Source: a virus. Taken from it: DNA of 45,369 bases. This document shows positions 9,773-13,131 of this stretch, in pieces (the first letter of the stretch is position 1; each line of letters opens with the position of its first letter). The stretch covers positions 1 to 45,369 of the IMG/VR virus record IMGVR_UViG_3300042090_000357, one strand, 5' to 3'. The notes beneath the pieces were generated by a model, which saw only the letters and a list, made by a program, of their open reading frames with translations, searched no databases and was not told the DNA's origin. The translations under genes were made by a program, and so were the position numbers.

Positions 9773-9975
9773 AGACGTTCAGAAGCAATATAAGCGGGGC
9801 CACGATTCACGTTTACGACACCGACGGCGAGTGGTTCTACAAGCATTGCCCGCAGCGCAAGTGGCTCAAGAAGCAAGAGGCTGCCGGTCCATTCAAGACC
9901 GAGGGGCAAGCTCTCTTAGCTGCATGCCAAGACGAGCGTTTCAATTTCAGCCAATATTCTGAGGTCAGGCCGTGA
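9769..9975 (+). CDS. Small hypothetical protein, 68 aa
   Basis: This short basic protein is rich in aromatic residues and Lys. The start at 9769 is chosen from the ATGA overlap; an upstream in-frame start at 9730 lies inside the previous gene. Its TGA overlaps the GTG start of the methyltransferase-like gene, so the two are probably co-translated. No domain is recognised. Confidence 0.65.
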   Translation: MKTFRSNISGATIHVYDTDGEWFYKHCPQRKWLKKQEAAGPFKTEGQALLAACQDERFNFSQYSEVRP

Positions 9976-10433
9976 AGATCTTAGATCTGTCAGCTGGCTA
10001 CCGCGCGGTCTGGTTCGATAAGAACCATCCGTTGACGACATATATCGATTCTCGACCCGAAGTGAATCCTACGCTGGTTGCCGACTCCCGTGATCTTCCG
10101 ACGATCGTGGGCCGCGATTTCAATCTAATCGTGTTCGATCCGCCGCACACGAACTGTGGCCCAGAAGGGGACATGGCAAAACGATATGGTCATTTCACGA
10201 CAGCGCAGATTTTAGAACTTGTAGAGAAAACTCAGTCAGAGGCGTGGCGGGTTGCTGCGCCCGGAGCCTTGATGGCCATGAAATGGAACGATCACACGAT
10301 ACGGCTCGAGCGCGTTTTAGAGCTCATGCCGCTGTGGGAGCCCCTATTCGGCCACACCGTGAAGCAGACGGGCGGCAATAAACACAGAGCCGGTGGTACT
10401 AGAACTCTCTGGGTCATGCTGCGGAGGCTATAG
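9972..10433 (+). CDS. Small SAM-dependent DNA methyltransferase-like protein
   Basis: The 153-aa protein begins with a GTG that overlaps the upstream stop (GTGA). It has a motif I-like start (I-L-D-L-S-A-G-Y, residues 3-10), an acidic residue at the end of the second strand, and motif IV as L-I-V-F-D-P-P-H (52-59), the catalytic D-P-P-[YFWH] of N6-adenine and N4-cytosine methyltransferases. No target-recognition domain is present. It may protect phage DNA from host restriction or alter regulation. A non-DNA substrate cannot be excluded. Confidence 0.7.
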   Translation: MKILDLSAGYRAVWFDKNHPLTTYIDSRPEVNPTLVADSRDLPTIVGRDFNLIVFDPPHTNCGPEGDMAKRYGHFTTAQILELVEKTQSEAWRVAAPGALMAMKWNDHTIRLERVLELMPLWEPLFGHTVKQTGGNKHRAGGTRTLWVMLRRL

Positions 10434-11291: not shown

Positions 11292-11437
11292 AATTAATTA
11301 AAGAGCTCTTTTGGTTTGTCGTGATCATGGTCACGCGCCCGTTTGAGACAGACGAAGTGGAGGGTAACGAGAAATGGCTACGAGAGAAACTAAAGGAGCA
11401 GGGCGATGCCAAGACACAACACCGTCATATCCGTTGA
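11288..11437 (+). CDS. Tiny membrane-associated protein, 49 aa
   Basis: An ATGA overlap with the upstream stop (11288-11291) opens a 49-codon frame. The N-terminal 18 residues include a short hydrophobic stretch (E-L-F-W-F-V-V-I-M-V) and the rest is charged and helical, so it may be a membrane-anchored micropeptide. Its end overlaps the next gene start by 32 bases. It has no recognised family. Confidence 0.55.
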   Translation: MKLIKELFWFVVIMVTRPFETDEVEGNEKWLREKLKEQGDAKTQHRHIR

Positions 11438-11630
11438 GCTCGAAATTAGAACGTGCCGTAACTGCAATTCAAAATTCAAGGTGCTCCCCGACAGCATTCA
11501 ATTCGTCTGCAGCACGCTCTGCTCTGGAGGAAGCTATCGATGGGGCGGATCTCCCGAGCACGCAGAACTTAGACGACAGCGACGAGCTGAAATTAAGAGA
11601 ACCGGGGTTTATGGTTATCGCAACGAATGA
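11406..11630 (+). CDS. Small zinc-ribbon protein, 74 aa
   Basis: AAGGAGCAGGGCG precedes ATG 11406. The protein carries C-R-N-C-N-S-K-F at 17-24 and a second C-S-T-L-C pair at 35-39, a treble-clef/zinc-ribbon pattern often seen in small phage and HNH-derived proteins, followed by a basic Arg-rich helix. It probably binds nucleic acid. It overlaps the Fis-like gene by 20 bases. Confidence 0.65.
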   Translation: MPRHNTVISVELEIRTCRNCNSKFKVLPDSIQFVCSTLCSGGSYRWGGSPEHAELRRQRRAEIKRTGVYGYRNE

Positions 11631-11802
11631 CGACCACGGATTCAAAACGATGCGCCAAATTGAGAAGGAGTACATCGTCATCCTCATGGACCAGTTCCGC
11701 GGCAACAAGCACAAGGTTGCGCGAACGATGGGTTTCAGCGGCAAGACACTTTACAATAAGCTCTACGAGTACGAACTTGATCACATCTACATAACACGAT
11801 AG
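11611..11802 (+). CDS. Fis-type helix-turn-helix protein, 63 aa
   Basis: The C-terminal 40 residues (I-V-I-L-M-D-Q-F-R-G-N-K-H-K-V-A-R-T-M-G ... K-T-L-Y-N-K-L) match the HTH of Fis and of NtrC-family activators, where the last helix binds DNA. It lacks any AAA+ domain. A small Fis-like protein may bend DNA at phage or host promoters, or modulate the divergent control region. The start at 11611 is preceded by CCGGGG; an earlier in-frame start would lie in the zinc-ribbon gene. Confidence 0.75.
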   Translation: MVIATNDDHGFKTMRQIEKEYIVILMDQFRGNKHKVARTMGFSGKTLYNKLYEYELDHIYITR

Positions 11803-11812
11803 GGGGAATAAA

Positions 11813-12082
11813 ATGAGCACAGAAACGACGAAACCAGAGGGCACCGGCCGCTTTGACTATGTGAAATATGACGACAAGGCGATGCTGATTCAAGATGAAA
11901 TGAAGCAAAGGGTCTATCACTTTGAACAGGCCATTGATGCTCAACTGAAGTCACCGCGCGCCAAGGCTTTGGCTCTGACAAAACTCGAAGAGTGTTACAT
12001 GTGGATTGGCAAAGCAATTCGGGACGATCAGATCGCCCGCAATGGCTCGGCACCTCTGCAAGAAGAACGCAAGAATGGATAG
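11813..12082 (+). CDS. Acb2/Tad1-like cyclic-nucleotide sponge, candidate anti-CBASS protein
   Basis: The 89-aa protein resembles the short helical Acb2 family (T4 Vs.4-like). It has a Y-D-D-K N-terminal segment, a long helix with A-I-D-A, an S-P-R-A-K turn, then A-L-A-L-T-K-L-E-E-C-Y-M-W-I-G-K-A-I (residues 52-69), which closely follows the family pattern of S-R-E...T-x-L-E-E-A-x-M-W-A-x-x-A-I. Known Acb2 proteins form multimers that bind cyclic di- and trinucleotides and block CBASS, and some block Thoeris. A GGGGG ribosome site precedes ATG 11813. Identification rests on motif memory, not a search. Confidence 0.7.
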   Translation: MSTETTKPEGTGRFDYVKYDDKAMLIQDEMKQRVYHFEQAIDAQLKSPRAKALALTKLEECYMWIGKAIRDDQIARNGSAPLQEERKNG

Positions 12083-12638
12083 GTGGCCACGGTTCGACAT
12101 CACCCCCGAGATATTGCATAAAGCAAAGACGGAGCGTTGGGAACCGAGTATCCCATTCGCCGACCACGCCGATATCAAAGATCCGAACCGCGCCATTTTG
12201 ATCGGGCGCATCGCCGAAGAGCTGTTCAAAGAAATCTGCGAAGGCTCTCGTTTCATGGATGTCGCCGACAAGCTCGGAGATCTCGTGTTTCGTGGGCTCA
12301 AGATCGACGTGAAGGGGCGCGAGGTTTCGTTCTTCAGCCATGGCCTCGCAGCCCTGATCCCGAACAAAGACATGCACAAAAAACCAGACGGCTACTTCTT
12401 CATCATGATCAAAGAGAATTTGAAGGTGGCCTGGGCGGCCGGCGGGATCTCACATGATCGGTACGTCAAAGAGGCCAAGATCGTTTGCAAGAACGAGGGC
12501 AAGATCAAGATCGATTGCCACAGCCTGAACATCAAACGGCTTCAATCGTACGAGACGTTCATGGACACAACAGCCGCCGCAGCTTTTGCACCGCCTGCTG
12601 ATAGTTCGCCTTCGCAGTATCGTAGCAGCAATTCATGA
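12075..12638 (+). CDS. Putative PD-(D/E)XK-like nuclease, 187 aa
   Basis: ATG 12075 overlaps the stop of the Acb2-like gene. The central L-V-F-R-G-L-K-I-D-V-K-G-R-E segment has the strand-D-x-K layout of PD-(D/E)XK nucleases, with an acidic helix upstream (I-A-E-E-L-F-K-E) and a V-K-E-A-K-I strand downstream. The substrate is unknown; such enzymes can act in restriction, host-DNA degradation or repair. It is the last rightward gene, and its final 80 bases overlap the sigma gene encoded on the other strand. Confidence 0.5.
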   Translation: MDRWPRFDITPEILHKAKTERWEPSIPFADHADIKDPNRAILIGRIAEELFKEICEGSRFMDVADKLGDLVFRGLKIDVKGREVSFFSHGLAALIPNKDMHKKPDGYFFIMIKENLKVAWAAGGISHDRYVKEAKIVCKNEGKIKIDCHSLNIKRLQSYETFMDTTAAAAFAPPADSSPSQYRSSNS

Positions 12639-13131
12639 TCTCAGCGATGTCAACAAACGCCATGTCGTCGTGGATGCGCATGCGAAATGCCATCTGCTGA
12701 CGTGGCGGCAAAGACTCAACGAACTTGCGCATGATCTCGCGCGACACGTACTCTACTGTGTCGGCCACAATCCTCTCGCCTGCTTCAACCTTATCTAAAT
12801 CAAGGTCGACCCGATTCCGCTGGTGATCACGTTTTCGATATTCGTTTTTGGCGCAGTTGATGGCGACGACCGCAAACCATTGCTTGAACTTTGAGGGGTC
12901 ATCGGGACCGCCAAGGCGAAGAACCTTGATGACGGCCTCTTGCATGATATCTTCGGCGGCCTCTACGTTCCGAGTGAATCGGTACACTCTTGCGAATGCG
13001 TAGTCATAGTGCTGTGAAATAAGAGCTGAAACGTCCACGAGAGAATCGTCCCACAAAATTGCCGTGACTGCACCTTGTATGGTAGCACGTTCGGGCAACT
13101 GAGAGGTCAACCGATCGCCTGGTGCAGCCAC
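12559..13131 (-). CDS. ECF-type RNA polymerase sigma factor
   Basis: Region 2 spans about residues 34-105 (D-Y-A-F-A-R-V-Y-R-F-T-R-N-V-E-A-A-E-D-I-M-Q-E-A pattern, then F-K-Q-W-F-A-V-V-A-I-N). Region 4 is at 138-188, with L-P-P-R-Q-Q-M-A-F followed by a helix-turn-helix D-I-A-E-I-M-N-C-C-Y-D-T-A-K. There is no region 1 or 3, so it belongs to the ECF group. It would redirect host RNA polymerase to phage promoters. The GTG at 13131 has no good ribosome site and the true start may be internal, near residues 21-27. It is the last gene of the leftward unit and overlaps the rightward unit tail to tail. Confidence 0.85.
   Translation of the reverse strand: MAAPGDRLTSQLPERATIQGAVTAILWDDSLVDVSALISQHYDYAFARVYRFTRNVEAAEDIMQEAVIKVLRLGGPDDPSKFKQWFAVVAINCAKNEYRKRDHQRNRVDLDLDKVEAGERIVADTVEYVSREIMRKFVESLPPRQQMAFRMRIHDDMAFVDIAEIMNCCYDTAKANYQQAVQKLRRLLCP

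Follow-up and report, generated by a model that had tools for sequence, protein, structure and literature searches.

What kind of phage protein is built from a bare helical hairpin, and does it belong with the known cyclic-nucleotide sponges Acb2 and Tad1? This question is raised by an open reading frame (ORF) at 11813-12082 (plus strand) of the IMG/VR virus record IMGVR_UViG_3300042090_000357; the window analysed here is this complete record, 45,369 bases of phage DNA. The ORF starts with ATG, ends with TAG and encodes 89 amino acids (aa) containing SPRAKALALTKLEECYMWIGKAI. The first-pass annotation had pointed to an S-x-R-x-K-A-L-A-L-T-K-L-E-E-C-Y-M-W-I-G-K-A-I pattern in this ORF, which is there as claimed, and had proposed an Acb2/Tad1-like protein. 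That identity was borne out by a hidden Markov model search, in which residues 27-69 matched PF24729 (Acb2_Tad1_hairpin) with 35.5 bits (E 1.2e-8), above the curated gathering cut-off of 27 bits. The protein also matched PHROG 1454 (E 1.1e-8), while a search for the family in 14 control genomes returned zero matches, and in the whole record the gene is present as a single copy; the resemblance to the family goes far beyond chance. We conclude that the gene is real and its earlier identification correct, so that a known kind of protein gains another member, whose activity against cyclic-nucleotide signalling we infer from sequence.

Viral relatives were collected by scanning viral contigs, which gave 18 loci and then 80 loci with 41-81% identity across the matched stretch; there are about 70 distinct viral relatives, and the subfamily alignment comprises 69 sequences. 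Two scans of GTDB genome contigs found one relative only, on a phage-like contig of a metagenome-assembled genome (MAG), so that, within the collections searched, the gene is essentially confined to viruses. In an annotated phage collection the best matches were four Arthrobacter and Microbacterium phages (34-38% identity), and the portal protein of the window resembles proteobacterial phage portals at 43-48%, which is too little to name a host. The subfamily is a compact, mostly environmental and little-studied branch of predicted phage sponges.

The subfamily consensus, R-F-D-Y-V-K-Y-D ... K ... G-R-A-K-S-L-A-L-T-K-L-E-E-x-Y-M-W-I-G-K-A-I-R-D-x-Q, combines features of both sponge types. The N-terminal segment RFDYVKYD...K (residues 13-41, 11849..11935, plus strand) is of Acb2 type and aligns in register with Acb2; its Y16-x14-K31 arrangement is retained in 64 of the 69 relatives. 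The second helix (residues ~47-77, 11951..12043, plus strand) carries a Tad1-like signature, PRAKALALTKLEECYMWIGKAIRDDQIARN, recognised by alignment and by hhalign comparison with Tad1 (P 7.5e-8). E59, Y62, K67 and R70 are invariant in all 69 sequences. Cys61 and Ile65 had been singled out in the first-pass annotation as deviations worth attention, an idea that we rejected, as both are usual residues within the subfamily: column 61 reads A29/C22/V12/F3/T3, with Cys second to Ala, and column 65 reads I42/V15/T7/A4/L1, with Ile the commonest. The solved Tad1 8kbb likewise has Cys at the position of column 61.

Concerning the fold, single-chain AlphaFold2 models computed at two alignment depths show a bare hairpin (helices at residues 21-44 and 48-77) whose core has a predicted local distance difference test score of about 97. 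No beta strands are present in these models, and no confident prediction was obtained for the short helix found at the N-terminus of Acb2. The helical fold expected by the earlier annotation is thus the one predicted, and the best Foldseek matches in the PDB include T4 Vs.4 with cyclic GMP-AMP and PaMx Acb2, with E-values above 1. In the viral structure library BFVD, the best matches are mostly named Acb2/Tad1 hairpin, with probability ~1.

In our view the gene product is probably a counter-defence sponge of the Acb2 kind, which would bind cyclic di- and/or trinucleotides and thereby counter the cyclic oligonucleotide-based anti-phage signalling system (CBASS) or similar signalling. The Pfam and PHROG matches speak for this, as do profile searches of the PDB, whose matches were, besides weak chance-level ones, solely Tad1 entries and 9ptq, 'Acb2 homolog 43'. 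Each chain would fold as the predicted hairpin; by analogy, a hexamer of such chains would form, in which the N-terminal Tyr16 and Lys31 of helix 1 may form cyclic-dinucleotide pockets between chains. The Arg49/Thr56 face of helix 2 could be a cyclic-trinucleotide site, since these residues align with what we take to be the corresponding site of Acb2. Made during infection, the sponge would capture the cyclic-nucleotide alarm before the effector fires; its target could be CBASS or a related signalling defence, for example CRISPR signalling of the cyclic triadenylate (cA3) type. The spacing of Y16 and K31 is that of Y8 and K23 in T4 Vs.4 and of Y11 and K26 in PaMx33 Acb2, where both residues contact the ligand. 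In T4 Acb2 the Y8A substitution abolished function in a Panoptes assay, and it is cited as disrupting dinucleotide binding; Acb2 also triggers the Panoptes defence, so that a sponge can be a liability (PMC12657218).

It should be noted, however, that several observations weigh against this interpretation. The solved structures are matched by Foldseek only with the E-values above 1 reported before, as short hairpins carry little information. Arg70 is found in 69/69 relatives where T4 has Phe82, the residue that stacks on the bound base, and therefore the ligand preference may differ. Outside helix 2 the resemblance to canonical Acb2 is weak: hhalign aligns the subfamily with the T4 Acb2 family with a probability of 45% (P 2e-4) and with PaMx33 Acb2 with a probability of 0.7%, and the canonical Acb2 crystal structures are absent from the results of sequence searches begun with the subfamily. 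Y16, K31, R49 and R70 are testable residues, and a ligand different from those of Acb2 and Tad1 would point to cyclic-nucleotide defences of uncultured hosts.

Helix 2 is in fact nearer to Tad1 than to Acb2. With Tad1 the hhalign probability rises to 94.5% (P 7.5e-8 vs 2e-4 for Acb2), and the best phmmer match in the PDB is Tad1 8kbb (E 9e-4). An Asp and a basic C-terminal tail after the Trp are also common to both proteins (RDDQIARN here, EDRIERN in Tad1). From these similarities one could suppose a hairpin-only derivative of Tad1 that has lost the beta domain and mainly sequesters Thoeris signals, namely glycocyclic ADP-ribose (gcADPR) or related ADP-ribose signals. We hold this to be unlikely, because the conserved motif is instead the Y-x14-K of Acb2. 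The NGPIKE..NGCQ motif was looked for in the protein sequence and not found.

The genomic contexts of the relatives were also compared. Neighbourhoods differ widely, as expected for accessory genes, and the gene travels among phage settings that are not related. A conserved neighbourhood was considered and rejected, as the other genes of the window are hardly represented at the loci of the relatives; a Fis-type helix-turn-helix (HTH) gene, such as the one preceding the ORF in the window, recurs close to the sponge gene in just a few loci, and 7/50 records contain HTH_8. In several relatives the gene is located inside a head/packaging module, where its neighbours are portal, terminase or GroES-like genes, and in locus L103 the relative is fused to another domain. 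These arrangements would suit a family hairpin protein with an in vivo role other than nucleotide sponging, for example a structural or regulatory one. Such a role appears very improbable to us, given that the ligand-type Tyr and Lys and the helix-2 signature are strictly conserved, that the neighbours differ so widely and that the family name rests on tested sponges.

By eye, the gene is flanked by a GroES-like gene on one side and by head genes on the other in L055, L077, L083, L086 and L179, a group that includes the MAG contig, and it adjoins a GroEL-like gene in L058. The fusion (L103:2537-3349) is an in-frame fusion of a short Acb2-like hairpin with a C-terminal domain (~190 aa) that has a FGIHLDENHATSPGSAGC motif, and a Tad1 gene follows downstream; the C-terminal domain is L,D-transpeptidase-like by eye, and a Pfam search of that part gave no match.

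In six loci (L008, L015, L027, L079, L103 and L195) the short hairpin gene is followed on the same strand, at a distance of 0-295 bp or with an overlap, by a Tad1 gene. Compared with solved Tad1, the L008 partner gives E 1.5e-13; for the L103 partner, the match to the founding Tad1 of SBSphiJ7 has E 6e-9. When 50 whole records were searched, three Tad1 genes were found and all three were adjacent to the sponge gene, for which random placement gives a probability of ~2e-7. The hairpin protein might then be the partner or modulator of a two-gene system, forming a mixed sponge with Tad1-type chains, while lone copies would use an unrecognised partner or act alone. The degenerate hairpin of the partners would fit this explanation, their R-E-N...T-K-L signature being lost in 5/6. 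However, 32/75 unpaired Tad1s have lost it too (Fisher P 0.066, not significant), so that a division of labour is at most suggested, and Tad1 is absent from the record in most members, including the window, across which none was found. This explanation is, in our opinion, quite improbable. We also rejected the possibility that every degenerate-hairpin Tad1 has an intact hairpin gene next to it that makes up for the loss, as most have no such neighbour.

A broader proposal, which we consider rather unlikely, is that the subfamily is a third branch of Acb2/Tad1 proteins, with the ligand N-terminus of Acb2, a Tad1-like helix and the invariant Arg70, and that in some phages it forms a two-gene module with an adjacent Tad1, the two dividing or jointly forming ligand sites. 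If this were true, a single operon would counter signals of both the CBASS and the Thoeris type. The adjacent pairs of short sponge and Tad1 lend themselves to simple laboratory tests of whether sponge functions are divided or joined in phages. Among the Tad1 loci L180-L255, ~36/80 proteins fetched by their beta-domain motif do not have the R-E-N...TKLxEA..W hairpin signature; most of these retain an Asn at the site and a C-terminal RxxRGVEG tail, and possibly have an altered ligand range.

In the window, the sponge gene is preceded by a gene for a Fis-family HTH_8 protein (11374..11802, plus strand; PF02954 E 7.6e-9), whose end is 10 nucleotides from the ATG. A probable ribosome-binding sequence, AGGGGG (11801..11806, plus strand), is found just 5' of this ATG in ATAGGGGGAATAAAATG. 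Downstream, an orphan gene of 187 aa (12075..12638, plus strand) shares 8 nucleotides with the sponge gene, its start overlapping the stop codon in ATGGATAG, and translational coupling of the two is possible. The orphan had no match in a Pfam search and no relatives in the phage and viral collections searched. A rightward arm (~3.5-12.6 kb), towards whose end the sponge gene is located, encodes RecT, exonuclease VIII, a methyltransferase and a Holliday-junction resolvase, and from this gene content the arm is probably expressed early; the leftward genes (~13 to 45 kb) encode terminase, portal, protease, head and tail proteins. A tyrosine integrase was looked for in the record and not found. 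Where both transcription arms converge there is a phage-encoded sigma-70 family factor (12559-13131, minus strand), similar to extracytoplasmic function factors and with regions 2 and 4. A small DNA methyltransferase-like ORF (9972-10433, plus strand; phrog_954 E 1.4e-27) in the same arm as the sponge gene is possibly a further anti-restriction gene.

Of moderate interest are the character of the subfamily, intermediate between Acb2 and Tad1, and the tandems of short sponge and Tad1 genes in other phages. As in Acb2 (PaMx33 gp24 / p26; T4 Vs.4), we find a phage protein of about 90 aa with the same Pfam hairpin domain, a predicted two-helix hairpin without a beta domain and the same Tyr/Lys spacing, whereas helix 2 is nearer to Tad1, Arg70 stands at the position of T4 Phe82 and in pairwise sequence comparison neither 8h2x nor 7uq2 is matched significantly. 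With Tad1 of Bacillus phage SBSphiJ7 and its homologues (7uav/8kbb) the protein shares the R-x-x-A-x-A-x-T-K-L-x-E-x-x-M-W signature of helix 2 and the Asp/Arg tail after it, and PF24729 is also present there; Tad1, however, has an N-terminal beta-sheet domain containing an NGPIKE-GVNGCQ motif, in place of which the protein has the Acb2-type Y-x14-K. PDB 9ptq, the 'Acb2 homolog 43', is likewise a short hairpin-only chain (76 aa; the entry has six chains). Its helix 2 contains GREKSVFKTKLEEA, which the profile aligns with E 0.0015, but it does not contain the YMWIGKAIRD block. On comparison of sequences and models, the protein is most fairly described as having a predicted architecture of Acb2 type and a second helix like that of Tad1.
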